In this document: positions 7,459 to 41,581 of the stretch, piece after piece
How positions within the stretch are numbered: the first letter of the stretch is position 1
Layout of the letters: every line of letters starts with the position of its first letter
Origin: Paenibacillus terrigena DSM 21567
GTDB taxonomy: Bacteria; Bacillota; Bacilli; Paenibacillales; Paenibacillaceae
Direction of reading: 5' to 3'
NCBI RefSeq assembly: GCF_000374845.1
Contig: NZ_KB895417.1
Span: 125,661-189,660 of the forward strand
Length of the DNA stretch: 64,000 bases
The notes under the pieces: model-generated
The model's input: the letters and a program-made list of their open reading frames with translations, nothing else
Told to the model about the DNA's origin: nothing
The model's database searches: none
Made by a program: the position numbers and the translations under genes

Positions 7459-7492
7459 CAACTACTGACTAACGTATGAAGGGATGTACAGG

Positions 7493-9307: not shown

Positions 9308-9308
9308 G

Positions 9309-10857: not shown

Positions 10858-10894
10858 TTAGTTTGGACATAGATCATTTACTTTGTCGCCTATT

Positions 10895-10908
10895 TGAAAA
10901 TGCTTTCA
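10895..10908 (+). promoter_or_regulatory. Putative cre (CcpA) site before the mannoside operon
   Basis: TGAAAATGCTTTCA matches the catabolite responsive element consensus TGWAARCGNTWNCA with one change at the central CG. It lies 69 nt before the solute-binding protein start, which fits carbon catabolite repression by CcpA. Confidence 0.55.
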
Positions 10909-10976
10909 TGAGGTACTGTAAATATATCCCCAAACGGGGGTCAGTCATTGAGAAGTACAACAGGAGGGAAACAAAA

Positions 10977-12443: not shown

Positions 12444-12459
12444 ACGTCACAAGATATAA

Positions 12460-12496
12460 ATGAATTGGGCGGATGTTGATCATTCGCCTAATTCAT
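12460..12496 (+). other. Intra-operon stem-loop
   Basis: ATGAATTGGGCG (12460-12471) pairs with CGCCTAATTCAT (12485-12496) with one G-U pair. No T-tract follows. It sits between the binding-protein and permease genes, where such stem-loops often protect the upstream mRNA and give higher binding-protein levels. Confidence 0.6.
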
Positions 12497-12524
12497 TCTC
12501 AACTTTGATTCGAGAGGTGATCGT

Positions 12525-13463: not shown

Positions 13464-13490
13464 GGATCGCCTTGGAAGGAGGAAATGGTT

Positions 13491-23316: not shown

Positions 23317-23332
23317 GCAGTGTGAAACGGAG

Positions 23333-23372
23333 CACTCGATCATTTCTAGCGTAGAAATGGTCGGGTGTTTTT
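23333..23372 (+). terminator. Intrinsic terminator after the orphan binding protein
   Basis: CACTCGATCATTTCTA pairs with TAGAAATGGTCGGGTG (two G-U pairs) around a 3-nt loop and is followed by five T. Confidence 0.9.
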
Positions 23373-23399
23373 GTGCAAATCTGGAATTGTAGGAAAACC

Positions 23400-23428
23400 T
23401 TGAGCCGAGTAGGGTTCGATGCTATATT
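23400..23428 (+). promoter_or_regulatory. Sigma-A promoter of the OmpR-type two-component operon
   Basis: TTGAGC (23400-23405) and TATATT (23423-23428) are separated by exactly 17 nt. The regulator start codon is about 98 nt downstream of the -10. Confidence 0.65.
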
Positions 23429-23526
23429 AATAGAGTCCTTTCTTGGCAGCATCTTCAGCAGACCATAGGAGTCCTCGCGCTCTTATAGATAGCTTTACAA
23501 CAACTAAAGTTCTGAGGGGTGACAGC

Positions 23527-24228
23527 ATGAACATTCTCATCGTAGAGGACGATGATTCGATTCGCAATGTATTACAGTCGTATCTCATTAACGAAGGTTG
23601 GACGGTACATACTTCCGAAGATGGCAATGATGCGCTTCAGAAAATTTACAATTTTAAGTTTGATCTACTGCTGCTGGATTTGATGATACCGGGTGTATCG
23701 GGAGAGGAGATTTGTAAGCAAATTCGCAAATTCTCGAATATTCCAATCATTATGATCACGTCTAAGGCGCAAGAAATGGATACGATTAACGGTCTGAATC
23801 TAGGGGCGGACGACTACATTACGAAGCCGTTCCGAATGAAAGAAGTGATCGCGCGAATCCGTGCCATCCAGCGCCGAATGAATATGTTCCCCGTGAATAA
23901 TCAGACCGTGATACGGTTCAATCGGGGCAATCTCGTGATTAATTTCGAGTCGAAGGAAGTCTATGTGAATTCCAAGCCGGCCAATCTGACGATTACCGAG
24001 TTCAAATTGCTCAGTGTGCTGGTAAAGAATCCGAACAAGCTCTATACGAGGCAAGAGCTGTCTTATGAAGTTCAAGGGTATCGGGATATCGGCGACGGAC
24101 GAACGACCGATACGCATATTAAGAATATCCGGAAGAAGATTGAAGAGGATCACAAAAATCCGGTGTACATCGTAACCAAAATTGGAGGCGGTTACAAGTT
24201 CTCCTATCATTCGGATGAGGGGTTCTAA
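23527..24228 (+). CDS. OmpR/PhoB-family response regulator
   Basis: 233 residues from ATG 23527 with a GAGGGG ribosome site. The receiver domain has Asp8-Asp9 and phospho-acceptor Asp51 in LLLLDLMIPGVSG, plus Lys in ITKPF. The C-terminal winged helix (about 135-230) has TITEFKLLSVLVKNPNKLYT and the RTTDTHIKNIRKKIEED recognition region. Its TAA overlaps the ATG of the kinase by 1 nt. The targets are not shown by the sequence; the upstream orphan binding protein and the downstream membrane protein are candidates. Confidence 0.95.
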   Translation: MNILIVEDDDSIRNVLQSYLINEGWTVHTSEDGNDALQKIYNFKFDLLLLDLMIPGVSGEEICKQIRKFSNIPIIMITSKAQEMDTINGLNLGADDYITKPFRMKEVIARIRAIQRRMNMFPVNNQTVIRFNRGNLVINFESKEVYVNSKPANLTITEFKLLSVLVKNPNKLYTRQELSYEVQGYRDIGDGRTTDTHIKNIRKKIEEDHKNPVYIVTKIGGGYKFSYHSDEGF

Positions 24229-25592
24229 TGGGCAAATACGGGATCCTGCGAAGAACACAGTTCATGCTGTTCTTCACACTCATGATGACATCGATTCTTC
24301 TGATGTTGACGGCGGGACTGTTCCTAAGCCTCACCTGGAATGAATCGTTAACGGCGTATAAGAAGCAAGTGATTCGAGATCAGACGCATAAAATGGCTTT
24401 CACTCTCCGATCGAATCTCGAACCGGGGATCCTCTCGAAGGAGCAGACGGAATGGATGCGGAAGGCTGTCAATATCTATGCCATGCATGTGCGCTATTAT
24501 GGACCGGACCATCAGAGCGTTCTCTTTGATTCAGTCCCCAAATCGCATAAATGGGCTGTGCCGTACACGGTGAGTGTACCGATTTCGGTTAATGGGGTAC
24601 TGCTGGGTTATTTGGATACGTTCGTTGATTTGAATAATGTACAGCATATTCCTTATTTGGCTTTTCTGGCGAACAATCTTGTTCATCAGAATAAGGGAAA
24701 CATTTTCTTCGTGATCCTCATATCGATTCTTGTTAGTTATGGTGCGGCACGATGGTTATCGAGGTCCTTACGGACAAGCGGGAAGATGGCGGAGCTCATT
24801 ACGAGCGGAGATCGCGACATTGTCATCCCTACGGCGGGTATGAAGGAGCTTGATCAGCTCACGCATGCCATCAATACGTTATCCGCAGATTTCACAAAGC
24901 AAGAGACGTGGCGCAAACAGTCGATGCAGGATTTGACGCATGAATTGCGGACGCCGCTTACTTCAATGCTTTCACGTATGGAAGCGTTGATTGACGGCAT
25001 TTATCCGGTGAATGAAGAGAATTTGAATCGGATTTATGCAGAGATTGATCGTCTATGCCGGTTGGTGGATGAGGTGGAGAAACTATCTGAGGCCGAAGGC
25101 GCGAGATTCCAACTGGTCATGCAGCAGGTCGATTTGCGCGAACTCGTGAAGGACGTCTATGAGAACATGATCTTTCTCGTCAAAGATAAGGGCATTACGT
25201 TCCATCTGCATCACTTGCATGTTCCATGTCCAGTCCGCGTAGATGCGGACCGCCTCATCCAAGTGATCACCAATGTCATATCGAACGCGATTAAATATAC
25301 GCCGACAGGCGGAACGATAGGGGTAGGCCTCTCGGTAAAGGATGCGCATACCGTTACGATGTACTGTACCGACAGCGGAATTGGCATTTCGGAGCAAGAC
25401 CTTCCGCTTATTTTCAATCGATTCTATCGTGCGGACAAAGCTCGTTCACGCGGTACGGGAGGGATCGGCGTCGGCTTAAGCATCGCCAAAGCATTGATCG
25501 AGGCCCACGGGGGAACGATTGATGCGGAGAGCGAGCTGGGTGAAGGTTCAACGTTCTGGCTGCATTTGCCGCTTGCGAAGTCGATTCATTAA
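24228..25592 (+). CDS. Membrane sensor histidine kinase
   Basis: 454 residues. Membrane segments near 13-35 and 160-180 flank an extracellular domain of about 125 residues. A HAMP linker (about 180-235) leads to HisKA with His238 in DLTHELRTPLTSML and a HATPase domain with NVISNAIKYTP, DSGIGIS and GIGVGLSIAKALIEAHGG. Overlap with the regulator gene shows they are partners. The membrane protein gene 27 nt downstream is probably in the same transcript. Confidence 0.95.
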   Translation: MGKYGILRRTQFMLFFTLMMTSILLMLTAGLFLSLTWNESLTAYKKQVIRDQTHKMAFTLRSNLEPGILSKEQTEWMRKAVNIYAMHVRYYGPDHQSVLFDSVPKSHKWAVPYTVSVPISVNGVLLGYLDTFVDLNNVQHIPYLAFLANNLVHQNKGNIFFVILISILVSYGAARWLSRSLRTSGKMAELITSGDRDIVIPTAGMKELDQLTHAINTLSADFTKQETWRKQSMQDLTHELRTPLTSMLSRMEALIDGIYPVNEENLNRIYAEIDRLCRLVDEVEKLSEAEGARFQLVMQQVDLRELVKDVYENMIFLVKDKGITFHLHHLHVPCPVRVDADRLIQVITNVISNAIKYTPTGGTIGVGLSVKDAHTVTMYCTDSGIGISEQDLPLIFNRFYRADKARSRGTGGIGVGLSIAKALIEAHGGTIDAESELGEGSTFWLHLPLAKSIH

Positions 25593-26760: not shown

Positions 26761-26870
26761 CCATTCTCACTCCCAGGCACAACGACGAGAGGGTGTAATG
26801 AGGTCGAACCCCACACCAACGTAGCAAGCAAGGGGATGGGCAGGGGGAGGAGAAGCGATAGCGTCCGCCT

Positions 26871-26922
26871 TTAAAAAACGTGTGAACTCCGCTGCATATC
26901 ATTCAATCCACACGTTTTTTAA
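26871..26922. repeat. Perfect 14-bp inverted repeat within a larger imperfect one
   Basis: TTAAAAAACGTGTG (26871-26884) pairs with CACACGTTTTTTAA (26909-26922) around a 24-nt loop. The A and T runs make it a possible bidirectional terminator. G-rich (26832-26855) and C-rich (26935-26965) flanks may pair as an outer, imperfect stem. The 704-nt gap from 26403 to 27106 otherwise shows no credible gene. Confidence 0.6.
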
Positions 26923-27106
26923 CAGCGGGTGGAGCCCCCTACCTATCCCCCTCCCGTGCTCCAATTTAACGGGTTTGCTCCCACTATCATCCCGCGCGTT
27001 GTCCCATCTTCACACGAAATCCACAACAATCACACACTACGCTCACAGTAAAATTGTTAGTATCAAGATATATAGATTTGCACATCTATAGCCTAGGAGG
27101 GGTATC

Positions 27107-28225
27107 ATGTCGAGAATCGTGTTTAATCATGTACACAAGCGCTATGGAAAATATCAGGAATATGCAGTGAAGGATTTCAATCTGGATGTGAAGGATCAAG
27201 AGTTTCTCGTCTTCGTAGGCTCTTCGGGATGCGGGAAATCAACAACCTTGCGTATGCTCGCAGGGCTTGAGGATGTATCTGAAGGTGAAATTTATATTGG
27301 TGATACGATTGTGAACGATATACCTCCCAAGGAACGGGATATTTCGATGGTGTTCCAGAACTATGCGCTGTATCCGAATATGTCCGTGTATGAGAATATT
27401 GCTTTCGGACTACGGATGCGGAAGCTTCCGAAGCATGAGATTGACCTCGCTGTGAAGCGGGCGGCACGCGTACTCGAAATCGAGAATTTCCTCGATCGCA
27501 GACCGAAGGAATTATCCGGGGGTCAACGCCAACGGGTTGCGCTCGGGCGAGCGATCGTTCGAACCCCGCAAGCCTTCTTGATGGATGAGCCGTTGTCGAA
27601 CTTGGATGCGAAGCTCCGCGTATTGATGCGCTCCGAAATCGTCAGCTTACATAAGAAAATCGGCGTGACGACGATCTATGTCACGCATGATCAGATCGAG
27701 GCGATGACGATGGGCGACCGGATCGTGGTCATGGAGAAAGGGATCGTGCAGCAGGTGGATACCCCAGAACGCGTCTATAATCACCCGGCGAATCTATTCG
27801 TCGCTAAATTTATCGGGAACCCGCCGATGAACTTCATTCAGGGCAAATTGCAAGAGAATAATGGTTTTCTCGAATTCCACACGAACCGATTTTCGCTGCA
27901 ATTGACGGAGCGCCAGGCGTCGCAATTAAGAAAACTTAACCTTGTCGACCGTGTGGTGATTCTCGGAATTCGCCCAGAGAATATCAGCTTCGAGGAAATT
28001 ATGCTCGAGACGTACCCGCATTCGATCGTGAATGGCATTATGGAGCTAAGCGAGTTCGTCGGGTCGGATCGTTATTATCATATGGATATCGGAATGGATA
28101 AGCGGTTCGTGGCGCGGGCGCATCCACGCTACCACTTCGATGATGGCATGCGCGCATCGGTAGCGGTGGATATGAACAAAGCGCTATTTTTCCACAAAGA
28201 GACTGAGATTTTATTAACGGATTAA
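27107..28225 (+). CDS. MsmX/UgpC-type ABC transporter ATPase
   Basis: 372 residues. The nucleotide-binding domain has Walker [13 protein letters not shown] (Lys44), Q-loop [12 protein letters not shown], signature [15 protein letters not shown], Walker [12 protein letters not shown] and the H-loop VTHDQIEAM. The last 130 residues form the regulatory OB-like (TOBE) domain typical of MalK/MsmX/UgpC ATPases. A TAGGAGGGG ribosome site precedes the ATG. It is the first gene of a 12.3-kb operon with two permease pairs. It could also power the ATPase-less importer at 10977-14408, since MsmX-like ATPases often serve several importers. Confidence 0.96.
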
Positions 28226-28238
28226 TGGAGGGAGACAG

Positions 28239-31205
28239 ATGGCAAAACGATGGTACAAGGTTGTTAGCTACCCCTTGATCATCATGATTCTTTCTGTGGC
28301 TGTACTTGGTGTAGCAGGTTTTCCGCGTCATTCGGACGGAGAACAAGCACAAGCCGACCCCTCAGAAATCATGAGCAATAGCCTTTCACATGATCCTTAC
28401 TTCTATGAAGTGAAGAAGCAATGGGAGAAAGATCAGGTTCCAGCGGGAACAAAGGAAATATCAATCAATTTGAAATCGATTGCGAACCAATCGCCAGATG
28501 CGTCCATTCAGATCGGCTCCTATCAAGGGGAGAATGATGTACTGCTGTGGTCTAAGCCAAGAGGCTGGATCGAGTATGAAGTGGATGTGGCGCAGGAAGG
28601 TCTCTACGAAATGGCAGCCGAGTACTTCCCATTCACGGAGGAAGATGGCGGCAGCAAGCAGCCAGTCATGATGACAGTCCAGCTCAATGGCAAATTCCCT
28701 TATCGGGAAGCGCACTCGATCTCACTCGAACGTGAATTCGTCGACCAGAAGCCGGAGAAGTTCGATGCAGACGGGAATCAGCTGCGTTCGCTGCTGAACG
28801 AGATCACAGGCTGGAAGAGCAAGGTGATACGGGATTCCCAGAATGCTTATGCAACTCCACTCTTATGGCATTTGCAGAAGGGGAAAAATACGATTCGCAT
28901 CTCGGTGCTTCGTCAGCCGATGGCCTTGAAATCGATCCGTTTGCAAGCGCCTTCAACCCTTCCATCTTACGAAGAGGTAAGTAAAGCATACCCATCCAGA
29001 GCAACGACCGCGCAGAACATCATCGCACTTGAAGCTGAGAACTTCACAACCAAAAACTCTTCATCCATTCAAACGCAATATGACCGAAGTCCATTAACAA
29101 CGCCGAAGTCATTAGACCTCGTGAGCTTTAATACAATCGGCGGAACGGTCTGGTACAAAGGAGGGCAAGCGGTATCATGGGATTTCGATGTGCCGGAAGA
29201 TGGCCTCTACAAGATCGCTTTCCGCGTCAAACAGAACTTCCGCAAAAACCTGTCAGCATTTCGAACGATCTCCATCGACGGTCAGATTCCATTCAAGGAG
29301 CTCACGAACTATCCCTTCGCCTATCACTCGGATTGGTATGGGGCTACGCTCGAGCAAGAAGAAAATAAGCCGTTCACGTTCTATCTGACGAAAGGTAAAC
29401 ACGCGATCAAGCTTGAAGCAGGCTATGAGCCTTATGTACCGATGCTTGCCCTAATCGATCAAATGTCCGCGGAAATTCGAGATATTTCGCAGGAAATTCG
29501 CATTGCTACAGGCAACAGTGAAGATGAATATCGGGTATGGGATGTCGCACGGGATATTCCGGGTATCACCGATCGCTTGCAGCGGCTGAAGCAGCAATTC
29601 GAAGTGCTAACCGCACAGATGGATCAGATCAATCATGAGACCAATAGTGTGTCGCAGACGTTCCGAACATCGGTGCAGGATCTGAAGGATCTGCTCGATA
29701 AACCGAACGAAATTCCATACAGCCAACTAACCATTGGATCACTGCAAGAGAAGCTGGAGTCGCAGCGGTCGCAATTGATGGATAGTCAATTACAAATCGA
29801 TAAGCTGTATATTGCACCGCTTGAGGCGGAATTGCCACGCATGGAAGCGGGGTTCTTCGAGAAAGTAGGCGGCATGTTCGCATCGCTATACTACTCGTTC
29901 ACAGCGGATAACCAGATAAGTAAACAGAATGATCAAGAACTTAACGTCTGGATGTTCAAAGGACGAGATTACGTAGATGAGATGCAGCAGCTTGCAGACG
30001 AGAAATTCACACCGGAGTCTGGTATTCGCGTGAAGGTGAATCTTATCCAATCGGCAGACCTGCTCGTTCTTGGTAAAGCAGCGGGCATCCTCCCGGATGT
30101 TGCTATCGGGGTATCGAATACTTCGATCTTCGATTTGGCCTTGCGTCACGCAGCGCTTGATCTGAATACGATGCCGGGGGCCGATAAGCTTGTCTCCAGC
30201 TTCCATCCAGGGGCGATGCTTCCATACCGCTATGACGGCGGGGTCTACGGGATTCCGGAGACGACCAACTTCAAAGTGCTGTTCTATCGCAAAGATATTC
30301 TGAAGCAGCTTGGGCTCACCGTTCCGAACACATGGGATGACGTCTATGCGATGCTTCCAACGCTACTCCAGAACGAGAGTAACTTCTATGTCGATCCGGC
30401 AGACTTCTCCTATCTGTTCTTCCAGAACGGGGTAGAGCTCTATAAGCAGGATGGGCTATCGACCGCACTCGGCGAGCCGCAGGCTTTCGAAGCGTTCAAG
30501 AAGTGGACGGATCTATTCAATGTGTATGGATTAGAACGCCAAGTTGCCAGCTTCTACAACCAGTTCAGAGATGGAACATTGCCGATTGGCATAGCCGATT
30601 TCAACCAATACATGCAATTGCTCGTCGCTGCTCCGGAAATATTGAACGAATGGGGCATCGCGCCGATTCCAGGTACGAAGCAAGCAGATGGGACAATTGC
30701 AAGATGGTCTGGGGGTTCAGGCATTACCCCAACCGCCAGTGTCTTATTCAACGATACGCCCAAAGAAAAACAAACCTTGGCATGGAAGTTCCTTGAGTGG
30801 TACATGTCGGATGAGATCCAGACCGAGTATGGTCTGAATCTGGAGCAATACCGCGGCGAGGCGTTCCGGTGGAATTCAGCGAACGTGAATGCTTTTGTCA
30901 ATATGCCATGGAAGACGGAAGATTTGCAGGCCATTCTTGAACAGTGGAAATGGATTAAAGATATTCCGAACGTTCCTGGTGGATATATGACGCTGCGAGA
31001 GCTCGGATTTGCTTGGAACCGCGTCACGATTGACGGTGAGAATGTACGAATATCCCTGGAGAAAGGGATTAAAGAAATCAATCGGGAACTGAAGCGCAAG
31101 CAGCAGGAATTCAACTTCATCGATAGCGACGGCAATATCATCAAGAAACTAGATCTTCCCACAGTGACGGAACCATGGAAGGGAGCGGAAGTAAATGTCG
31201 ACTAG
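28239..31205 (+). CDS. Giant solute-binding protein with carbohydrate-binding-like N-terminal domains
   Basis: 988 residues, about twice the usual size for this class. An N-terminal hydrophobic segment (9-28) lacks a lipobox, so it is a membrane anchor or a cleaved signal. Two beta-sandwich modules of CBM35/CBM6-like look follow, about 45-260 and 262-400 (IIALEAENF and GLYKIAFRVKQNF are typical strands). A helical, partly coiled-coil section covers 405-555. The sugar-binding SBP domain runs from about 563 to 900 (ELNVWMFKGRDYVDEMQQL, FKVLFYRKDILKQLGL). The charged C-terminus ends at 988. The gene overlaps the permease start by 11 nt. It probably captures a polymeric or large glycan at the surface; the substrate is unknown. 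Confidence 0.88.
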   Translation: MAKRWYKVVSYPLIIMILSVAVLGVAGFPRHSDGEQAQADPSEIMSNSLSHDPYFYEVKKQWEKDQVPAGTKEISINLKSIANQSPDASIQIGSYQGENDVLLWSKPRGWIEYEVDVAQEGLYEMAAEYFPFTEEDGGSKQPVMMTVQLNGKFPYREAHSISLEREFVDQKPEKFDADGNQLRSLLNEITGWKSKVIRDSQNAYATPLLWHLQKGKNTIRISVLRQPMALKSIRLQAPSTLPSYEEVSKAYPSRATTAQNIIALEAENFTTKNSSSIQTQYDRSPLTTPKSLDLVSFNTIGGTVWYKGGQAVSWDFDVPEDGLYKIAFRVKQNFRKNLSAFRTISIDGQIPFKELTNYPFAYHSDWYGATLEQEENKPFTFYLTKGKHAIKLEAGYEPYVPMLALIDQMSAEIRDISQEIRIATGNSEDEYRVWDVARDIPGITDRLQRLKQQFEVLTAQMDQINHETNSVSQTFRTSVQDLKDLLDKPNEIPYSQLTIGSLQEKLESQRSQLMDSQLQIDKLYIAPLEAELPRMEAGFFEKVGGMFASLYYSFTADNQISKQNDQELNVWMFKGRDYVDEMQQLADEKFTPESGIRVKVNLIQSADLLVLGKAAGILPDVAIGVSNTSIFDLALRHAALDLNTMPGADKLVSSFHPGAMLPYRYDGGVYGIPETTNFKVLFYRKDILKQLGLTVPNTWDDVYAMLPTLLQNESNFYVDPADFSYLFFQNGVELYKQDGLSTALGEPQAFEAFKKWTDLFNVYGLERQVASFYNQFRDGTLPIGIADFNQYMQLLVAAPEILNEWGIAPIPGTKQADGTIARWSGGSGITPTASVLFNDTPKEKQTLAWKFLEWYMSDEIQTEYGLNLEQYRGEAFRWNSANVNAFVNMPWKTEDLQAILEQWKWIKDIPNVPGGYMTLRELGFAWNRVTIDGENVRISLEKGIKEINRELKRKQQEFNFIDSDGNIIKKLDLPTVTEPWKGAEVNVD

Positions 31206-32190
31206 AACACCGATCCTTTCTGATCATCCAAGTCCAGCACCGGCTGGACTTGGCGAGACGAAGAGCAAATTATCGCAGAAGCTGCGTTATTTATTAAGTG
31301 AAATATGGAAGTTCCGGCTGTCCTATTTGTTTATCCTTCCATTCCTTGTGTTGTTCGTGATTTTCATCCTGATCCCAGTCGTTGCCGGCGTCCTGCTCAG
31401 CTTCACATACTTCAACGCGATTGAGTTCCCAACGTGGAGAGGATGGATGAACTACCAGAATCTCTTCTCGCAGGATATCGTATTTTTGCAGCATGTCCTG
31501 CCTAACTCATTTAAATTTGCGTTGTTCGTCGGCCCGATCGGTTACATCTTCGCCTTTGTTCTGGCGTGGTTAATCGCTCAATTGCCATCTACGCTCAGAA
31601 CCTGGTATGCCTTAGCCATGTATGCTCCTTCTTTATCCGCAGGGGTAGCGATGACGGTTGTATGGACGGTAATGTTCACGGGCGATCGATCCGGTTATAT
31701 CAATAGCTTCCTGCTCAAATGGGGACTCATTGATAAGCCGGTATACTTCCTGATCGATAAGGATTATTTGCTCAATATTATGATCGTGATCTCGATCTGG
31801 TCCAGTATGGGGATCGGCTTCCTCGCGATCCTGGCGGGTATTCTTAATGTAGATAAACAATTGTATGAAGCCGGGAGAATCGACGGCATTTCGAGTCGAT
31901 TGCAGGAAGTGTGGTACATCACGATCCCGATGATGAAGCCGCAGATGCTGTTCGCAGCCATCATGTCGATCGTTCATACACTCAAATCGGGAGGCCTAGG
32001 CTCGACGCTGACGGGAAGCAATCCAACACCGAACTATGCTGGACAGCTTATGATTGATCACATCGGGGACTTCGGCTTTATACGTTTTGAACTGGGTTAC
32101 GCCAGCGCCATTTCCATCGTGCTGCTCATCATGTGCTTCCTGCTGAGCAAGCTGTTCTGGAAGTTGTTCGGACCGAAGGAGGATGAATGA
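31195..32190 (+). CDS. Sugar ABC transporter permease, pair 1 first subunit
   Basis: 331 residues. The first 45 residues are polar and basic, followed by six membrane segments. The EAA loop YEAGRIDGISSRLQEVWYIT faces the ATPase. It resembles MalF/LacF/UgpA-type subunits. The start lies inside the end of the giant binding-protein gene and its stop overlaps the next permease, so the genes are translationally coupled. Confidence 0.94.
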   Translation: MSTRTPILSDHPSPAPAGLGETKSKLSQKLRYLLSEIWKFRLSYLFILPFLVLFVIFILIPVVAGVLLSFTYFNAIEFPTWRGWMNYQNLFSQDIVFLQHVLPNSFKFALFVGPIGYIFAFVLAWLIAQLPSTLRTWYALAMYAPSLSAGVAMTVVWTVMFTGDRSGYINSFLLKWGLIDKPVYFLIDKDYLLNIMIVISIWSSMGIGFLAILAGILNVDKQLYEAGRIDGISSRLQEVWYITIPMMKPQMLFAAIMSIVHTLKSGGLGSTLTGSNPTPNYAGQLMIDHIGDFGFIRFELGYASAISIVLLIMCFLLSKLFWKLFGPKEDE

Positions 32191-33104
32191 TGCAAGAGAT
32201 CCAAATGATGACGACCAAGCGGACGTGGTCTGCGAAATGGCAGGATTTTGTCTTCGCAGTCCGGCAGGTGGACCGAACACAGATTGGGATTGCGATCGGC
32301 TTAACCCCACTGGCTATCTTCATGCTGCTGCCGCTCTTCTATATCTTTAACCATGCGTTCAAGCCGCTGCATGAATTGTTCTTATTCCCTCCGACATTCG
32401 TGGTGAGAGAACCGACCATCCAGAACTTCTCGGAGCTGCTTGCCTTGACGGAATCGACGGTTGTGCCTGTCGCGAGATATATCTTCAACAGTATCGTCGT
32501 GACGTTCTTAGCTACACTTGGAATGGTAATCTTCGGAGCGATGTGCGCCTATCCGCTTGCCAAACATAAATTTCCGGGTTCTAAAATCGTCTTCGGCTTG
32601 GTGCTGACCTCGCTCTTATTCGCGACGGAAGCGATTGCGATCCCTCGATTCGTCGTCGTGCAGAGCCTTGGGATTATGAATACCTATTGGGGGCATGTGC
32701 TGCCGATGATCGCGATGCCTGTCGGGGTATTCCTCCTGAAGCAGTTCATGGATCAAGTTCCGAATGAATTAATCGAAGCAGCCAAAATTGACGGCGCATC
32801 GGAATTTTTCATTTTCCTGCGCATCGTTATTCCAATTGTGTCGCCAGCAATGGCTACAATCACGATCCTGGCATTCCAATCGGCTTGGGGAAATGCAGAG
32901 ACTTCAACCTTATTCATGCAGGATGATGCAATGAAGACACTTCCTTTCTATATGGGGACGTTAACGTCGAACTTAGCTAATTCGGTAGCAAGGCAAGGAG
33001 CGGCGGCGGCTGGTGCATTGATTATGTTCATTCCATCCTTGCTTGTGTTCTTAGTCTCCCAACGGAAGGTCATTACAACGATGGCGCATTCGGGGATTAA
33101 ATAA
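32190..33104 (+). CDS. Sugar ABC transporter permease, pair 1 second subunit
   Basis: 304 residues. ATG codons exist at 32187 and 32190; AAGGAGG at 32176-32182 is better spaced (7 nt) for 32190. Six membrane segments and the EAA loop IEAAKIDGASEFFIFLRIVI identify a MalG/LacG/UgpE-type permease. It forms the first channel with the preceding subunit. A second, separate permease pair is encoded later in the same operon. Confidence 0.93.
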   Translation: MQEIQMMTTKRTWSAKWQDFVFAVRQVDRTQIGIAIGLTPLAIFMLLPLFYIFNHAFKPLHELFLFPPTFVVREPTIQNFSELLALTESTVVPVARYIFNSIVVTFLATLGMVIFGAMCAYPLAKHKFPGSKIVFGLVLTSLLFATEAIAIPRFVVVQSLGIMNTYWGHVLPMIAMPVGVFLLKQFMDQVPNELIEAAKIDGASEFFIFLRIVIPIVSPAMATITILAFQSAWGNAETSTLFMQDDAMKTLPFYMGTLTSNLANSVARQGAAAAGALIMFIPSLLVFLVSQRKVITTMAHSGIK

Positions 33105-33128
33105 GCGATAGGAGAAGGGGGTTCCGAC

Positions 33129-35240
33129 ATGAAAAACAATCACAGCAGGCGGAAGTTTGCGATTTGGTTCGTTTGCTTGATGACGATAACGCTATTTCCA
33201 ACAGCTGCATTCGCGGATGTGCCGTATCGAACATTTACGAAGGATAGCTATGGTCGTACGATTATGACCCAACCTGCCTATGCACCGAAAGGCGTCATCG
33301 CAAGGGATATCCCTACGCTGAACCAGCAAGGCGAGGTCAGCTATACGCCCTTGCAAAGACCTCAAGACTTGTTCATTGATCGTCAGGACCATATCTATAT
33401 CGCCGATACAGATAACAATCGAATTATTCATTTGGATCCGAGCGGAGAGCTGATACGGATCATTACGCTGCCAGAGAGTCCGTTGAATCAGCCGCAGGGG
33501 GTATTTGTGACCGAAAATGGGGACCTCTTCATTGCGGATACCGGCAATAAACGAGTCGTGCACACGGATAAGGGAGGTCGGCTCGTTCAAGAGTTGAAGC
33601 GGCCGAAGTCGAGCTTCATGAATGATCAATTTGTGTATGAACCGACGAATATGGTCGTTGATAAGCGCGGATTCATCTATGTGGTATCGAAAGGGAGCTA
33701 CAACGGTATTATCGAATTCGATCCGGAGGGCAATTTCCTCAAGTTCTTCGGAACGAACAAAACGGAAGTCAATCTGATGGACAAAATCCGTAGACAGTTC
33801 TATACGAAGGAGCAGCTGAGTCGACAAGTTCGATTACTTCCCGTTACGATCCGTAACATTGAAATTGACGACCAAGGCTTTATTTATACCGTCTCGGGTT
33901 CCAAATCGGAGCAAGTGAAGAAGTTGAACATTCGTGGCGAAGATTTATGGAAAGAGAAGGATATCGATTTTGATAAAAATAAGGCATATCGGCGTACTAG
34001 CAGTGAACAGATTGAGCCGCAGTTAACCGATGTTTCCGTCGATCAGAACGGGAATATTCTGATGATCGATAAGTCACGTAACATCATTTCGCAATATGAC
34101 GAGAATGGCGAATTGTTGTTCTATTGGAGTGGCAGTTCAACAACGGGAAATTCATTAATCGGGTTAACCAAAGCACCAACGGCTGTCGCGACCAATTCTC
34201 GGAACGAAGTGTTCATTCTGGATGAAGCGCTCAATCTCGTACAAGTATATAAGCCGACGGAATTTGGATCGACGGTACAGGCGGCATACAAGTTCATGCA
34301 GGATGGCAAGTATCTTGAAGGCGAGAAATATTGGACCAAGGTGCTGAAATTAAATGCGCATTTCTCCCCTGCTTTTCAAGGGATTGCGCAAGCGGCCTTC
34401 TATCGTGAGGACTATGAGTTAGCGCGTGACATGTTCAAGCTCGCTGGGGATGAGGGTGGATTCTCCGATTCCTTCTGGCAGCTGCGACTCGTGTGGTTCC
34501 AGAAGAATTTCTCGATCTTTGCGAATGTACTCATTGTGCTGGCCGTCTTGATCTGGATTCTCGGACTTTTGAAGCGGAAGTATAAATTCAGGATTCTACC
34601 GAAGACGACCCTGCTCGATCGGCAGCGCTGGTATCAGCAATTCAAGCATGTGTTCTATATTCTGAAACACCCGATTGATGGCTTCGGCGATCTTAGGTAT
34701 CGGCAAAAAGGCAGTTATATCAGTGCCTTGATCTTGCTCATCCTGACGCTTGTCATGATTCTGGTGAAGACGTTCTACTCCAGCTTTACATTCAATCCAG
34801 TCCCGGATTATGAGAAAGGTGCCAGCTCGATGCTGATCATCTTCATGTCGGTCTGGCTGTCTTGGGTCGTCTGCAACTATTTGATCGGTTCCATTCGGCA
34901 AGGAGAGGCAAGGTTCAAGGACGTATTCATGGGCAGCTCTTATGCGCTGTTCCCTGTTGTATTGTTCGGCCTACCGCTGGCGTTGATCTCGAACGGGCTT
35001 ACGCTCAGCGAAGCATCCATTTATCATTCGATTGAATGGGCGATGCTGCTCTGGAGTGGGCTGCTGTTCTTCTGGAATATCCAGGCGATGCAGAATTATG
35101 GTGTGGGAGAGACGGTCGTCAACATTCTGCTCACCGGAGTGACCATGATGATTCTGTGGATTATGATCTTCATTCTGGTCGGCCTGTCTTCCGAGTTCAG
35201 CAACTTCATCTATACGATTTATCAGGAGGTATCGATGTGA
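33129..35240 (+). CDS. NHL-repeat, TPR-like and Yip1-like membrane protein
   Basis: 703 residues. The signal peptide ends near TAAFA (residue 29). A beta-propeller of NHL type fills about 65-370, with repeats such as RPQDLFIDRQDHIYIADTDN and GVFVTENGDLFIADTGN. A short TPR-like helical pair follows (385-440, AAYKFMQDGKYLEGEKYWTK). A membrane segment at about 455-475 precedes a cytoplasmic stretch and a Yip1-type bundle of about five membrane helices (530-695). The outside propeller may bind glycan or protein while the bundle sits beside the permeases. The stop shares its last base with the next start. Function is unknown; operon membership strongly suggests a role in glycan uptake. Confidence 0.82.
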   Translation: MKNNHSRRKFAIWFVCLMTITLFPTAAFADVPYRTFTKDSYGRTIMTQPAYAPKGVIARDIPTLNQQGEVSYTPLQRPQDLFIDRQDHIYIADTDNNRIIHLDPSGELIRIITLPESPLNQPQGVFVTENGDLFIADTGNKRVVHTDKGGRLVQELKRPKSSFMNDQFVYEPTNMVVDKRGFIYVVSKGSYNGIIEFDPEGNFLKFFGTNKTEVNLMDKIRRQFYTKEQLSRQVRLLPVTIRNIEIDDQGFIYTVSGSKSEQVKKLNIRGEDLWKEKDIDFDKNKAYRRTSSEQIEPQLTDVSVDQNGNILMIDKSRNIISQYDENGELLFYWSGSSTTGNSLIGLTKAPTAVATNSRNEVFILDEALNLVQVYKPTEFGSTVQAAYKFMQDGKYLEGEKYWTKVLKLNAHFSPAFQGIAQAAFYREDYELARDMFKLAGDEGGFSDSFWQLRLVWFQKNFSIFANVLIVLAVLIWILGLLKRKYKFRILPKTTLLDRQRWYQQFKHVFYILKHPIDGFGDLRYRQKGSYISALILLILTLVMILVKTFYSSFTFNPVPDYEKGASSMLIIFMSVWLSWVVCNYLIGSIRQGEARFKDVFMGSSYALFPVVLFGLPLALISNGLTLSEASIYHSIEWAMLLWSGLLFFWNIQAMQNYGVGETVVNILLTGVTMMILWIMIFILVGLSSEFSNFIYTIYQEVSM

Positions 35241-37597
35241 TGCGATTATTTCGTTCGAAGAAATTACTGCTATCGGTGACTGCATGCATCATATCTGTAT
35301 TAACGATTGTCGGGTTTATTTTCGCAGCATCGGGCTCAGATTCGCAATCTAAGCAACAATCGGCTGAACAGTCTAGCGAGCCATCAACAGCGCAACAAGC
35401 GAAGGTGAAGCCGGCCAGCGTGAAGGTCGCCGCTGCTGGTACCCCAGTTGCGAGTGGGTTGCCAGATGAACGTACATTCAAGCCCTTGGTAGAGAATCAG
35501 CGATTACAGTTAAAGGTCGATGCGAGTACAGGCCATTTCCTCGTGGTGAATAAGCAGACGGGAGATGTATGGCGTTCCTTCCCGAATCCGAAGAATTGGA
35601 AGGAAAAGTCTAACACGGCAGCCTGGAAGGACCATCTCGCATCGCCCTTCATGTTCCGTTATGTTGAATTCAATATTCGGAAAGACTTGCTCAAAGAGTC
35701 GAACCTCATTGCACAGAAGGGAACGGTCTCGCAATTTGAGGTGACAGAGCACGGCTTCAAAATTCAATATGAGCTCCCAGAGCTTGGCTTCTCGATTCCC
35801 GTGGAAGTCACCCTCGGAGATGATTTTGTTGAGACGAAGGTGCTATCCGAAGGATTGAAGGACGAGAGGGTATACACCGCGGAAGAATTGAAGACGAAGA
35901 AAAAAGATCCGCTGGCTAGGCTCGTATCGATTCGTCTCTTCCCTTTCCTTGGGGCGCAGACTTCGGATGAGGAGGATGGGTTTCTGCTCATTCCAGATGG
36001 CTCAGGAGCTTTAATCGATTTCAAGAAATATCGTGCAGGCACCCAGAACTTGTACACGGAACGCGTATATGGCGATGACTGGGCATATAGCAACCGCAAT
36101 ATCATGTCCGAACGCAAAGCGATCAAAATGCCGGTCTTCGGCATCAAGTCAGCGAACCAGGCGATGGTTGGTGTCATCCGTGAAGGGGACGACTATGCGA
36201 ACGTTGTCGCTGCGCCTTCCGGGTCATTCAGTCAATACAATTGGGCGACGGCAGAATTCGAATATCGCTTCAAGTTCTTCCAACCAACCGATACGAAGAA
36301 GAAGAACGGTTATCTGATGTACAGCAAAGAAATAACGAAGTCTGATCGTTCTGTCAGGTATTACTTTATCGATCAGCCTGAGGTTGATTATGCGCAGATG
36401 GCAGATCGGTATCGTCAATATTTGATCGATGAACAGGGACTGAAGCCGCTTCAAGGCAAGAATGCAGACATGAAGCTTCAGCTCCATGTCCTAGGGGCTG
36501 ACACGGAGATAGGCTTCTTATGGGACTCCTACCTGCCTCTTACGACAACCGCAGAGGCCAAAGAAATTGTGCAGGAGCTCGGTGCACTCGGCGTCGATGA
36601 CATGTCCATTACTTACTTGGGCTGGCAGAATGGCGGGTTTAGCAAATTCGGAGGGGCGTTCCCGGTCGGTTCGAAGATTGGCGGGAATGAAGGCATGCAG
36701 CAATTCATTGATTTTGCCCATACGAGCGGGTTTCCGGTTTATTTGGACGCCTCATCGTATACGTTCAACAATACCGGCAAAGACGGCTTTCGCGTGAAGC
36801 GGGATGGACTTCGGGACCTTGGTTCATCCGTCATCGAATTCAATTCTTGGGATGATCAGCGTACGACGTTCGTCAGTCCGAAATTCATGCAGAAGGTGAT
36901 ACAGGATGATTTGCAGGACGCGAAAGATCTGATGGTGGACGGTTATATGTACGGTCAAGGGGTCGGCAATCAGTTAAATACCGACTATAACGAGAATCAC
37001 AAGGTATCAAGAGAGGAATCGATGCACATTCAGCAGGAGATCATGAATCAGACGAAGCAGTCGCTCGGGAACGTGCAAGTCGCGGATGGGAATTTGTATA
37101 CCTTGCCGTATGTGAATCATATGCACAATATGTTCGCGAGTAACTCTTATGATCTGTTCGTGGATCGCGCGATTCCTTTTGCACAGATGGTTCTGCATGG
37201 TCTCGTTACTTACTCATTTGACTATGCCAATTTAAGTGATGATTATGAGGAGAGTTTCTTGAAAGGAATCGAGTACGGGGCGGTGCCATCTTACATCGTC
37301 ACGTATGCCAAACCGCAGGAGCTGCTCAAGTCCCTTCATTTGGATCGATTCTACAGCACGTATTATAAAGATTGGATTCAAGAAATCGTATCGCAATATC
37401 AGCGTTATACGGAAGCGCTGGGTGATGTCCAAGGCGAGTTCATCGTGAATCATCGCGAGTTAGCGCATGGGGTGTTTGAGACGACATACGCGCATGGCAA
37501 GCGCATTATTGTCAACTACAATGAGACGCCGTACAACCTGGACACACAGCATGTGGTGAAGGCGAGAGACTTTATTGTTATTAAGGGAGGTGCGTGA
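35240..37597 (+). CDS. DUF5696-type membrane-anchored protein, possible TIM-barrel glycosidase
   Basis: 785 residues from ATG 35240 (a GTG at 35237 is also in frame; AGGAGGT lies just upstream). An N-terminal membrane helix (about 9-31, no lipobox) and a Ser/Gln-rich linker anchor it outside the cell. A beta-rich domain (80-380) is followed by a probable TIM barrel (410-700) with DDMSITYLGWQNGGFS, FPVYLDASSYTF and YDLFVDRAIPFAQMVLHG. It resembles proteins annotated DUF5696. Acidic residues in barrel strands are compatible with glycoside hydrolase activity, but no catalytic pair can be proven by eye. It sits between the two halves of the transport operon. Confidence 0.75.
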   Translation: MRLFRSKKLLLSVTACIISVLTIVGFIFAASGSDSQSKQQSAEQSSEPSTAQQAKVKPASVKVAAAGTPVASGLPDERTFKPLVENQRLQLKVDASTGHFLVVNKQTGDVWRSFPNPKNWKEKSNTAAWKDHLASPFMFRYVEFNIRKDLLKESNLIAQKGTVSQFEVTEHGFKIQYELPELGFSIPVEVTLGDDFVETKVLSEGLKDERVYTAEELKTKKKDPLARLVSIRLFPFLGAQTSDEEDGFLLIPDGSGALIDFKKYRAGTQNLYTERVYGDDWAYSNRNIMSERKAIKMPVFGIKSANQAMVGVIREGDDYANVVAAPSGSFSQYNWATAEFEYRFKFFQPTDTKKKNGYLMYSKEITKSDRSVRYYFIDQPEVDYAQMADRYRQYLIDEQGLKPLQGKNADMKLQLHVLGADTEIGFLWDSYLPLTTTAEAKEIVQELGALGVDDMSITYLGWQNGGFSKFGGAFPVGSKIGGNEGMQQFIDFAHTSGFPVYLDASSYTFNNTGKDGFRVKRDGLRDLGSSVIEFNSWDDQRTTFVSPKFMQKVIQDDLQDAKDLMVDGYMYGQGVGNQLNTDYNENHKVSREESMHIQQEIMNQTKQSLGNVQVADGNLYTLPYVNHMHNMFASNSYDLFVDRAIPFAQMVLHGLVTYSFDYANLSDDYEESFLKGIEYGAVPSYIVTYAKPQELLKSLHLDRFYSTYYKDWIQEIVSQYQRYTEALGDVQGEFIVNHRELAHGVFETTYAHGKRIIVNYNETPYNLDTQHVVKARDFIVIKGGA

Positions 37598-37601
37598 TGG
37601 A

Positions 37602-38471
37602 ATGAGTCGAAAACGCGTGCTTACCGCTCGGTCTTTACGGAGGCTCGAAGGGACGCTGTTTATAGCCCCTTGGGTGATTGGATTTATCGCGTTCTTAGGG
37701 TTTCCGCTTCTTTTCTCGTTGTACATGAGCTTTCATACAGTTAAGATTCTACCGAATAAGGTCGCCTATGATTTTGTCGGTCTGAAATTCTACCGCGAGA
37801 TTATCCTGAACAGTTCCGCGCTTTATGATAAGTTGATCCCTTATTTTCAAGAAGTAGTGCTTATGGTACCGGTGATTGTTATTTTTGCACTGATGATCTC
37901 GATTCTACTCAATCAGAAGCTGTACGGTAGATTCCTGTTCCGCGCAATTTTCTTCCTGCCAGTAATCTTCTCGACCGGCGCGGTACTGCTGCAGTTTATT
38001 AACCAGGGGGAGGGGAACCTCGGGTTCCTGGAGCGGTTCGAACTTGGCGGCTATCTCGATACCTTCCTCGGGGACAGCTCTTGGGCGAAGCCGGTGAAGG
38101 AGGTTCTGAATCACTTTGTACTCGTCTTGTGGTACTCGGGAGTTCAGATTCTGATCTTCCTCGCCGGGCTGCAGACCATCTCCACCTCGGCGTATGAATC
38201 GGCACGAATTGACGGGGCAACCCCGTGGGAAGTCTTCTGGAAAATTACGCTTCCTGCGATGTCGCCGTTTATTCTGCTTAACTTGATCTATACCGTGGTC
38301 GACATGTTCACCTTCCCATCCAATCCGGTCATTGAGCTGGTGAACACAGGGAATTACGGGTTTAACAGCGCACTGGCCTGGATCTATTTCTTCATTATCA
38401 TCATTTTCTTGGGGCTTGTGATATTGATCTATTCGATCATGAATCGTAGACATGCTAAAAATTACGTCTAG
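37602..38471 (+). CDS. Sugar ABC transporter permease, pair 2 first subunit
   Basis: 289 residues from ATG 37602, 11 nt after AGGGAGG; an upstream in-frame start would lie inside the previous gene. Six membrane segments and the EAA loop YESARIDGATPWEVFWKITL are present. It is a MalF/LacF-type permease but clearly different in sequence from the one at 31195, so pair 2 is not a recent copy of pair 1. Confidence 0.93.
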   Translation: MSRKRVLTARSLRRLEGTLFIAPWVIGFIAFLGFPLLFSLYMSFHTVKILPNKVAYDFVGLKFYREIILNSSALYDKLIPYFQEVVLMVPVIVIFALMISILLNQKLYGRFLFRAIFFLPVIFSTGAVLLQFINQGEGNLGFLERFELGGYLDTFLGDSSWAKPVKEVLNHFVLVLWYSGVQILIFLAGLQTISTSAYESARIDGATPWEVFWKITLPAMSPFILLNLIYTVVDMFTFPSNPVIELVNTGNYGFNSALAWIYFFIIIIFLGLVILIYSIMNRRHAKNYV

Positions 38472-38488
38472 AGGGGAGGGAATCGCAG

Positions 38489-39451
38489 ATGCGGACCATA
38501 TTATCCGATGTGAAGGGTCGTCGATTTCTAACAAAGCGACGGATCAGGCAAGCACGTAATTTGGTGCTCGGGAAAGAGATTAACCAAGGGCTTGTATTTA
38601 AGCTGATCTTGTACGCAGTCCTTATCATTACTTCATATATTTACATGAATCCGATGCTGAAGATGCTCGTGAAGATGGTCATGAATGTGAAGGATCTCGT
38701 AGATCCGACAGTAACATGGGTGCCATCCTCCATTTATTTGGGTCATGTGGCAGAGGCGTGGAAGCTGCTGAATTATGAGAATTCATTAATGATCAGCTTG
38801 TTCATCGCCGTGAGTGTAGCCGTGTTACATTGTATCTCCTGCGGATTGGCGGGATATGCGCTCGCTCGATTAGATGTACCGTTCAAACGAACGATCTTCT
38901 TCCTATTGATGCTTGCGTTCATTATTCCACCGCAGGTTATCATTCTGCCGACGATTATGGTCTATACCAAATTAGGCTTAAACGGTCATCTCATTACACT
39001 GATTTTACCGTCAATCTTCGGGTTTGGGGTCAAAGGCGCCTTGTTCGTCGTCATCTTCAGACAGTTCTTCATGACGCATTCGAAATCGCTTGAAGAGGCT
39101 GCGAGAATTGACGGGGCGACGGCGCTAAAATTCTACTTCCGCGTGATGTTCCCGCTCGCAAGACCAGCGATCTTGGTCGTCTTCCTGTTCTCCTTCGTGT
39201 GGACGTGGAATGACACCTATTATCCGCGGATGTTCCTCAGTCCGACCGGCGATATGCCGCTTGCGATGAAGATGACCTTCATCGATACAGCCTTGGGGCA
39301 ATTTATTCAGAACGGGGGATTCCCGGAATATATGGCGGAGCCGATTAAGATGGGTGCTAGTTTCTTGACGATCCTGCCGCCCGTGCTGATCTATTTATTC
39401 GCACAGCGTTATTTTATCGAAAGTGTGGAAAGAACGGGCTTGGTCGAATAG
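38489..39451 (+). CDS. Sugar ABC transporter permease, pair 2 second subunit
   Basis: 320 residues, with a basic 35-residue N-terminal extension before the first membrane segment. The EAA loop LEEAARIDGATALKFYFRVM is typical of MalG-type subunits, and the C-terminus QRYFIESVERTGLVE is a family hallmark. It is the last gene of the 12.3-kb operon; a terminator follows 18 nt after the stop. Confidence 0.93.
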   Translation: MRTILSDVKGRRFLTKRRIRQARNLVLGKEINQGLVFKLILYAVLIITSYIYMNPMLKMLVKMVMNVKDLVDPTVTWVPSSIYLGHVAEAWKLLNYENSLMISLFIAVSVAVLHCISCGLAGYALARLDVPFKRTIFFLLMLAFIIPPQVIILPTIMVYTKLGLNGHLITLILPSIFGFGVKGALFVVIFRQFFMTHSKSLEEAARIDGATALKFYFRVMFPLARPAILVVFLFSFVWTWNDTYYPRMFLSPTGDMPLAMKMTFIDTALGQFIQNGGFPEYMAEPIKMGASFLTILPPVLIYLFAQRYFIESVERTGLVE

Positions 39452-39468
39452 AAGAATCCGAGCGTAAG

Positions 39469-39502
39469 CCTCAGCAATATTCACCACGTTGCTGGGGTTT
39501 TT
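39469..39502 (+). terminator. Intrinsic terminator ending the two-permease operon
   Basis: CCTCAGCAA (39469-39477) pairs with TTGCTGGGG (39489-39497) with one G-U pair and is followed by TTTTT. No other terminator is seen from 27107 to here, supporting a single transcript. Confidence 0.85.
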
Positions 39503-39536
39503 CTCTCGAATCAAGTAGAGAAAGGAATGACACTTC

Positions 39537-40424
39537 ATGCTGGATCAGCTGCCTAGCCTTAGTCCAGAAGAGACACTTCCATTGCTGCGTAATCAATTCT
39601 ATTATCCGCCTTATATTACACTCGCTCGGATGTTCAAGTCTCCGAAGAGCTGGTTCATGGCACCCCAAGGGTTTAAGCAGTACCAGCTTCTGTACGGTGT
39701 TGCGGGGATGGCGGAGAATATCGTGGACGGTAACACCTATGTGATGCGAAAAGGGGATGTCTATCTCATTCCGCCGAATGCGATTCTTTCACAGCATCCT
39801 TGCCCAGCGGACCCGTTTACCGGGATAACTGTCACCTTTCATTTTGGACGATGGGAGTCGCCGCTGGAGACCATTCTGGGTAGAGGCCCTTATCTGGGCA
39901 ATGATGAGAACGGGTCTCTGCATGGGATGTTCATATCACTCATTCATGCGATTAAGAAGCATCACCTGTCCAGCAATATGCTGGCGCAAGGGCTGCTGCT
40001 TCAAATCATCTATCAATTCGCTCAGAATCGTCCTGCGCTCGAAGCGCCAACCGCAAGTACGACGAAAGTGAATGCGAAGATGGTGCAAATCTGCAATTAT
40101 ATGAAAGAAAATTATCGGCAGGCGATTCGGTTGGATACATTAAGTGCGATCACGGGACTTAGCAGGAACTATATCATTCGTCAATTTCGCAAATGTTACG
40201 GCTCCACGCCAGCGGATTATCTCGCTTCGATCCGCATCGAGAAGGCCAAACAGTTAGCGATCCAGACGGATCTAACCATCACCGAGATTGCCAATCTAGT
40301 CGGCTATGCGGACCTGCATTCGTTCAGTCGCATGTTCAAGAAGCGGATGCAGATGAGTCTAAGTCAATTTAATGCCACGGTCATTTCGTCCTTGGATCTT
40401 GAATCTCCGGTGGAGAAATCGTAG
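39537..40424 (+). CDS. AraC-family transcriptional regulator
   Basis: 295 residues. The N-terminal half (1-165) looks like a cupin-type AraC ligand-binding domain (YVMRKGDVYLIPPNA is the typical strand pair). The C-terminal 100 residues are a double helix-turn-helix: AIRLDTLSAITGLSRNYIIR and TITEIANLVGYADLHSFSRM. There is no receiver domain, so it should respond directly to a small ligand, probably a sugar. It follows the two-permease operon in the same direction and is the best local candidate to regulate it. Confidence 0.92.
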   Translation: MLDQLPSLSPEETLPLLRNQFYYPPYITLARMFKSPKSWFMAPQGFKQYQLLYGVAGMAENIVDGNTYVMRKGDVYLIPPNAILSQHPCPADPFTGITVTFHFGRWESPLETILGRGPYLGNDENGSLHGMFISLIHAIKKHHLSSNMLAQGLLLQIIYQFAQNRPALEAPTASTTKVNAKMVQICNYMKENYRQAIRLDTLSAITGLSRNYIIRQFRKCYGSTPADYLASIRIEKAKQLAIQTDLTITEIANLVGYADLHSFSRMFKKRMQMSLSQFNATVISSLDLESPVEKS

Positions 40425-41529: not shown

Positions 41530-41534
41530 AGAGA

Positions 41535-41572
41535 TAAAAGCGCAAACGCCGTAAACGGCATTTGCGCTTTTA
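41535..41572. terminator. Strong terminator, probably bidirectional
   Basis: An 18-bp stem (TAAAAGCGCAAACGCCGT with its complement, one G-U) has a 2-nt loop. The A and T flanks allow function on both strands, serving the phosphoesterase and the minus-strand gene remnant that converges on it. Confidence 0.92.
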
Positions 41573-41581
41573 TTTGTAGAT

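Follow-up and report, generated by a model that had tools for sequence, protein, structure and literature searches.

The question raised by this locus is why a single bacterial operon should bring together the genes of one importer ATPase, one giant binding protein (SBP) and two different pairs of permeases. A first-pass annotation of the window, that is, of the whole 64,000-nucleotide stretch of DNA analysed here, read these genes as a dedicated machine that captures, trims and imports a large glycan, perhaps with two routes sharing one receptor. The organization of the operon, its conservation among relatives and the separability of its halves bear on each part of this interpretation.

Operon architecture and component proteins

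The unit at 27107..39451 consists of eight co-directional ORFs, all on the + strand in the ORF list of the window, with intergenic gaps of 13, -11, -4, 24, -1, 4 and 17 nt in operon order once gene starts are corrected (Table 1). The corrections place the probable start of the DUF5696 gene at 35240, where 35036 was originally called, and that of P2a at 37602 in place of 37575. The tight spacing noticed at first reading is therefore confirmed (gaps from -11 to +24 nt), and terminator-like sites are no commoner than chance between 25400 and 42400 (16 found, 14.4 expected). Pfam and NCBIfam also bear out the gene families named at that stage, namely an ATPase, an SBP, four permeases, NHL/Yip1 and DUF5696. 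A chance order or mis-called ORFs are ruled out by these Pfam matches and by an order kept in 88 of 103 loci. The operon is preceded by a gap of 704 nt that contains an inverted repeat with 20-nt arms. At the opposite end, no inverted repeat of at least 12 nt was detected between P2b and the AraC gene (39440-39560) and one was found after the phosphoesterase gene, which suggests that the transcript may extend past P2b, through AraC and the phosphoesterase, to 41529. The AraC regulator, possibly co-transcribed with the operon, lies outside the conserved core of the module, and its identity to the AraC protein at the module of a sister species (L011) is only 31.5% over 130 residues.

Table 1. 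Coordinates of the operon and of the features around it in the window
Feature	Position	Strand	Basis
Conventional SBP, 452 aa, lipoprotein-type start; outside operon	21958..23316	+	SBP_bac_8/1
Response regulator, probably part of system	23443..24228	+	Pfam
Histidine kinase, partner of response regulator	24228..25592	+	Pfam
Inverted repeat, 20-nt arms, 24-nt spacer; possible terminator	26865..26928	.	repeat search
MalK/UgpC (MsmX-like) ATPase	27107..28225	+	Pfam/NCBIfam
Long SBP, 988 aa	28239..31205	+	Pfam, profile match, N-terminus
SBP domain of long SBP (residues 553-988)	29895..31205	+	Pfam, profile vs solved structures
Permease P1a	31195..32190	+	BPD_transp_1; EAA loop kept in relatives
Permease P1b	32187..33104	+	BPD_transp_1; EAA loop
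NHL beta-propeller + Yip1-like membrane domain; N-terminal hydrophobic segment	33129..35240	+	Pfam, profile
DUF5696, GH129-like, 785 aa with corrected start; one N-terminal hydrophobic segment	35240..37597	+	Pfam, profile
Permease P2a (corrected start)	37602..38471	+	BPD_transp_1; EAA loop
Permease P2b	38489..39451	+	BPD_transp_1; EAA loop
AraC-family regulator, 85 nt 3' of P2b	39537..40424	+	Pfam
Inverted repeat, 19-nt arms, 3' of phosphoesterase gene; possible transcription-unit end	41534..41573	.	repeat search

The operon ATPase is of the MalK/UgpC type (NF008653, 440.9 bits against a cut-off of 432) and carries a MalK-type OB/TOBE domain according to Pfam and NCBIfam. All four permeases match BPD_transp_1 in Pfam; judged from their sequences, the P1 and P2 pairs are different families, with 33% identity between P1a and P2a over 99 residues and 21.5% between P1b and P2b over 200 residues. 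This low identity rules out a recent duplication of one pair. In the relatives described below, the E and G of the EAA coupling loop are kept in 100/100% of P1a, 97/100% of P1b, 99/100% of P2a and 94/100% of P2b. The Asp of the P2a loop is retained in 50%, Glu often standing in its place, and the strict loop pattern is satisfied by 37 of 88 P2a proteins.

The binding protein deserves the name of giant for its 988 residues, but it is built as an ordinary binding domain preceded by about 550 extra residues, the SBP_bac_1 match of Pfam being limited to residues 580-861 (580-864 for the family 1/8 match). In a profile search, the solved structure closest to the SBP domain (about 553-988) is that of Lin1841 (5ysb, E 3.6e-32), the protein with which Listeria innocua binds beta-1,2-glucooligosaccharides. 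From the N-terminus the layout comprises a hydrophobic anchor, beta-sandwich regions resembling GH115_C and CBM35, a coiled coil and the SBP domain; the stretch between sandwiches and SBP domain is called a probable coiled coil from profile matches to designed coiled coils. Scans of the N-terminal part of 11 members at E 0.01 gave CBM_35 in 5, CBM_6 in 2, GH115_C in 2 and Golvesin_C in 7. The hydrophobic N-terminal segment of the window protein has no lipobox. Long SBPs of relatives measure 954-1051 residues, and their alignment (A4) holds 61 of 64 long SBPs plus that of the window.

Conservation of the gene order among relatives

Comparison with other genomes demonstrates that the operon is a recurring and conserved module, more general than the first-pass annotation assumed. 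The comparison covered 143 stretches (L005-L147 minus the 100-base L027, plus the window), of which 142 hold a DUF5696 ORF, L063 being left out as none is labelled there. Removal of 15 loci with DUF5696 identity of at least 85% gave 127 non-redundant loci, and 24 of these were left out for short flanks, so that scoring was done on the 103 whose flanks reach 8 kb or more upstream and 3.5 kb or more downstream. The sampling is biased, given that the 72 non-redundant named loci are the most window-like and the 19 family picks were drawn from a list of top scorers; the least biased sample is the phylum draw of 31 loci, for which 39 of 48 over-cut-off places were retrieved.

Every one of these 103 loci has an NHL gene no more than three genes upstream of DUF5696; Yip1 is upstream in 101, and P2a and P2b are both downstream in 100. 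The long SBP is found upstream in 92 and P1a together with P1b in 90. The full order long SBP-P1a-P1b-NHL/Yip1-DUF5696-P2a-P2b is kept in 88 of the 103 non-redundant loci, with the labelled genes co-stranded in 88/88 complete modules; L058 and L068 fall outside the 88 for having no separate P2a ORF labelled. Thirteen loci have no long SBP or not both P1 genes upstream, and ten remain when L025, in which the halves stand in reversed order, and L056 and L130, each with one P1 ORF missing, are set aside. The proposal that the eight genes occur together across relatives hence holds for seven of them in their order, whereas the ATPase gene is inconstant: it lies inside the operon in 22 of the 88 complete modules, which rules it out as a constant part. 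Separate occurrence of the two permease pairs in most genomes, named at the outset as the finding that would speak against a joint system, is not what is seen overall, yet 12 of the 31 loci of the phylum draw have neither P1 nor long SBP upstream. These twelve possess the P2 half only and all belong to five genomes of families f45 and f60; a further 15 carry the long SBP and both P1 genes upstream, and the remaining 4 are cut or rearranged. Whatever the flank length, NHL is upstream in 30 and P2a with P2b downstream in 29 of the 31, the exceptions sitting near contig ends.

Of 394 genomes in the window's family, 250 have DUF5696 over the cut-off, as do 26 of 299 genomes drawn from the phylum, and two of 80 named loci (L077 and L096) are of Chloroflexi origin. 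A reverse search of the 299 genomes with a model of the long-SBP N-terminus gave, among the matches listed, a strong match in 27 genomes, 25 of which are, among those same matches, included in the 26 with DUF5696 over the cut-off. The exception among the 26 (G105) has a contig end inside the SBP, at L016, and the two genomes with a long SBP and no DUF5696 match (G106 and G156) have short contigs that end within P1a. In the 64 loci with all eight parts, counting the short, conventional SBP and leaving the ATPase out, distance-matrix correlations range from 0.89 to 0.96, and those of the long SBP with all other parts from 0.91 to 0.95. Together with the order of the 88 loci, these values uphold the notion of a unit of importer type whose two different permease pairs are inherited together. 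Mean identity differs between parts (short SBP 0.23, DUF5696 0.31, NHL 0.36, long SBP 0.39, P2 0.42 and P1 0.51-0.53), and partial rank correlations are 0.46 for P1a-P1b, 0.34 for long SBP-NHL and 0.31 for both DUF5696-NHL and P1a-P2b.

Five loci of the distant family f13 (L161, L162, L164, L166 and L167) match the long SBP in its N-terminal half only, in ORFs of about 250-560 residues, and in L162 P1a- and P1b-like permeases adjoin two ATPases; these loci are possibly a diverged form of the system. Viral carriage was also considered, but none of 42 pattern matches in viral contigs could be confirmed as a relative. Controls from Thermotoga and Lactococcus fell below the cut-off. No description of the module was found in titles and abstract openings of the open-access literature among the matches listed, an account elsewhere being possible, and no paper on DUF5696 was found in the open-access literature.

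DUF5696, receptors and the number of importers

The trimming of the glycan is a doubtful element of the original interpretation: DUF5696 resembles GH129 enzymes, but the catalytic positions of that family are not conserved in it. The window protein scores 630 bits with PF18952 (cut-off 25.6). A profile made from 70 of 75 listed relatives plus the window (alignment A3, 71 sequences) matches in the PDB NagBb, a GH129 alpha-N-acetylgalactosaminidase (5wzn, E 2.7e-16), and, with E from 2e-10 to 3e-10, the chains 8rzk, 8rzg and 5opq of GH129-like anhydrogalactosidases; the GH129 Pfam model is absent at E 0.01 in single-sequence scans of 19 members. At the column equivalent to Glu478 of NagBb, presumably its acid/base residue (the aligned chain does carry E at that index), E is found in 10 and D in 7 of the 71 sequences, an acidic residue in 17 (window residue 615). 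The nucleophile equivalent, that of Asp435, a catalytic residue according to PMC5698469, falls in a variable, gapped loop where the exact column is uncertain; the column at window residue 572 has an acidic residue in 22 of 71 sequences (14 D, 8 E), and neighbouring columns have fewer. The window protein presents G/Q at the Asp435 equivalent and A at that of Glu478, and on this alignment the GH129 catalytic positions are not conserved. Four other acidic positions are conserved, D253 in 70/71, D280 in 65/71, D582 in 64/71 and E678 in 68/71, and on that ground DUF5696 may carry out another catalytic chemistry. A glycosidase that is active through another pair of catalytic residues, trimming during import, would fit either model of transport discussed below and has in its favour, besides these residues, the homology to GH129 enzymes and the activity of a GH129-like enzyme that has just one of the two NagBb catalytic residues, as PMC5698469 reports. 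The scarcity of acidic residues at both equivalent columns speaks against it, as do the clade-dependent enzymes beside the loci, which are unlike one fixed specificity, and we consider such an activity possible but not probable. Next to DUF5696, NHL and Yip1 form one fused protein in 68 of the 103 loci and two separate ones in 33, with another arrangement in 2.

As for transport, we lean, with slightly better than even confidence, towards a platform for glycan uptake in which two type I ABC importers are combined. The first (importer 1) would consist of the long SBP with P1a/P1b, and the second (importer 2) of P2a/P2b with a conventional lipoprotein SBP that in most relatives is encoded beside the module. 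An MsmX/UgpC-type ATPase, encoded in the operon here and outside it in most relatives, would power both pairs. Beside importer 2, DUF5696, held by a single N-terminal anchor helix, and the Yip1-borne NHL propeller would stand outside the membrane and pass glycan chains or fragments on to the receptors. This reading, in which the pairing of receptors with permeases is inferred, is favoured by the order and single strand kept in the complete modules, by the EAA loops kept on all four permeases and by the different families of P1 and P2. It is favoured likewise by the separability of the halves: in 10 of the 103 loci NHL/Yip1-DUF5696-P2a-P2b occurs with no long SBP or P1, each time with a short SBP in the stretch, and long SBP-P1a-P1b occurs in L152, L155 and L160 without DUF5696 or a short SBP in the stretch. 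Absence of the long SBP and P1 requires 3 changes on a FastTree of the 103 DUF5696 sequences, 2 of them forced by well-supported branches. Moreover, a conventional SBP is adjacent in 65 of the 88 complete modules (immediately upstream in 49, no more than two genes downstream of P2b in 17), and a lipobox-like start is found in 48 of 65 short SBPs versus 6 of 86 long ones. Adjacency differs with the ATPase: the short SBP adjoins 59 of 66 modules without operon ATPase (class A), which again favours two importers, against 6 of the 22 with it (class B, to which the window belongs; Fisher p 7e-8). A shared ATPase is favoured by the window genome, where four modules coexist with three ATPases of MalK/UgpC type at E 1e-80 or better, situated at the window, at L007 and on contig C13, the contigs of L005 and L006 having none at that threshold, and by the precedent, established in PMC7658222, of MsmX-type ATPases feeding several importers.

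Seven loci (L030, L035, L037, L038, L039, L042 and L050), near the window in the DUF5696 tree, have GH2, GH42 or GH106 homologues in place of the long SBP and P1 upstream of NHL/Yip1. The smallest starred set of that tree containing the window has 24 rows, 17 with operon ATPase and 7 without long SBP/P1.

The use of the long SBP as single receptor for both permease pairs, with two ways in for the pieces of a single large glycan, loses ground in the family as a whole, where a second SBP lies beside 65 of the 88 modules, P2 dispenses with the long SBP in ten loci and long SBP/P1 stands alone in three. In the window genome it retains some plausibility, because no short SBP adjoins the operon there; in class B, 16 of 22 modules, the window counted, have no conventional SBP adjacent, 13 have a short SBP anywhere in the retrieved stretch and 9 have none, and the long SBP distances correlate with all parts. 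On balance we judge it unlikely. Two importers are the simplest reading of the family, with the second SBP of class B usually not adjacent, and this low adjacency, the half-kept Asp of the P2a loop and some class B flanks made up of other than glycan genes weaken that reading. Partial rank correlations do so too by not placing the short SBP with P2 (0.09 and 0.02, with 0.10 and 0.09 for P1, the highest being 0.26 with DUF5696); mirror-tree pairing of the short SBP with P1 or P2 gave no discrimination.

The window's second receptor, if two importers operate, would best be sought in the SBP at 21958-23316, whose partnership is uncertain. The module of the sister species (L011) has eight proteins 88-99% identical to those of the window and a 476-residue SBP immediately 3' of P2b. 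The top homologue of this SBP in the window genome is 21958-23316 with 44% identity, a value that weakens the two-importer reading when set against 88-99% for the module proteins; the second-best homologue, at 42%, lies beyond the window's end. Since 21958-23316 is closer (47%) to another SBP of L011, it is a candidate rather than a shown ortholog, and two importers become less and a shared receptor more favoured. The genes at 21958-25592 are taken as probable parts because two-component homologues follow P2b in relatives: in eight ATPase-bearing loci the regulators are 49-56% and the kinases 37-40% identical to those of the window, directly after P2b in L029, L031, L041, L048 and L049 and one ORF further in L028, L043 and L047. 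Between the histidine kinase and the operon, 25620-26402 encodes a 260-residue protein for which six hydrophobic stretches are predicted; Pfam gives it no match, and blastp finds no counterpart in the compared loci at E 1e-8. The same two-component genes, here upstream of the operon, would agree with one unit of the module being a sensor, in which P2, NHL-Yip1 and DUF5696 detect the glycan and signal to the neighbouring system, and the NHL part of the window protein does resemble the sensor propeller of PknD (1rwi, profile match). P2a and P2b keep their coupling loops, however, conventional SBPs stay near the P2 half and such a kinase is found beside just 11 of 142 compared loci, so that a sensor seems quite improbable.

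A broader picture, which we put forward tentatively and hold to be rather doubtful, is that of a Gram-positive counterpart of the surface glycan machines of Bacteroidetes: a docking station feeding two ABC importers, as a chassis re-targeted for each glycan. A non-catalytic GH129-like protein and a Yip1-anchored NHL propeller would hold the glycan outside the cell, the long SBP would extend on its coiled-coil stalk with carbohydrate-binding domains of its own, and the fast-evolving short SBP and DUF5696 would change the target while P1 stays fixed. A common uptake system with two unexplained core proteins represents a gap in the understanding of Gram-positive glycan uptake.

Neighbouring enzymes and comparison with known systems

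Enzymes beside the loci differ between clades, which rules out a single fixed substrate for the family and makes the module look like a general chassis. Beside 12 of the 127 non-redundant loci lie homologues of two or more of the SOGP, GH144-like and GH35 enzymes (Pfam Glycoamylase, PF10091, being taken by us as GH144-like), with at least one of them Pfam-checked in L059, L079 and L096. These loci belong mostly to Bacillus-type genera, and also include L015, L065 (labelled Paenibacillus) and L096 (Anaerolineae); SOGP and GH35 genes adjoin the Halobacillus or Thalassobacillus loci L074, L079 and L098. The three enzymes are those that PMC8861115 describes for the use of beta-1,2-glucan in Ignavibacterium, and the loci provide a concrete first substrate candidate. 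Other loci adjoin GH30, GH26, GH38 or GH2/GH42/GH106 homologues, and some class B flanks are made up of other genes: the module is followed in L007 by an M81 peptidase and an aminotransferase and in L033 by luciferase-like monooxygenases, neighbours that a plain sugar substrate would not explain. In the window, Pfam identifies GH125 and GH38 upstream of the operon and a PL8 lyase downstream, and the SOGP, Glycoamylase and GH35 models have no match among the 27 window proteins scanned. In the PL8-type polysaccharide lyase (42180-46130) a cohesin and a dockerin, both modules of the cellulosome type, occur in the same protein as F5/8 and Ig-like domains. Another ABC importer, separate and of conventional make-up, occupies 7484-14408, after a histidine-kinase/response-regulator pair and before the GH125 and GH38 genes; it has an SBP with DUF3502 at 10863 and two permease-sized genes, the first of them Pfam-confirmed.

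Among known systems, DUF5696 is related to GH129 (NagBb) over the barrel and to GH129-like anhydrogalactosidases of the DagB type over N-terminal region and barrel, and it departs from them in its unconserved catalytic positions, its N-terminal anchor segment and its place in an importer operon. With the Lin1839-Lin1841 beta-1,2-glucan cluster described for Listeria innocua (PMC8861115) the module shares the relationship of its long SBP domain to Lin1841 and the beta-1,2-glucan enzymes of 12/127 loci; unlike that cluster, such neighbours are found at a small part of the module loci, and the Lin1841 chain (397 residues) has no N-terminal extension. As in Gram-positive polysaccharide utilisation loci, importer genes lie next to those of AraC and two-component regulators and, in many of the relatives, next to glycosidase genes, but here a fixed seven-gene core, without a glycosidase of known activity, is combined with changing enzyme neighbours. 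Another parallel is offered by CUT1-type importers (MalFGK2/MsmEFGK), with which the module shares a MalK/UgpC-type ATPase, BPD_transp_1 pairs with EAA loops, a family 1/8 SBP and an ATPase often outside the operon, the ATPases of CUT1 systems being multitask (PMC7658222). In contrast to the typical CUT1 layout of one permease pair and a lipoprotein SBP of 400-500 residues, the window has two pairs and a 988-aa SBP without lipobox. The same holds for the module, in which two dissimilar permease pairs belong to one conserved unit, the 954-1051-residue SBP mostly has no lipobox, and NHL/Yip1 and DUF5696 proteins sit between the pairs.
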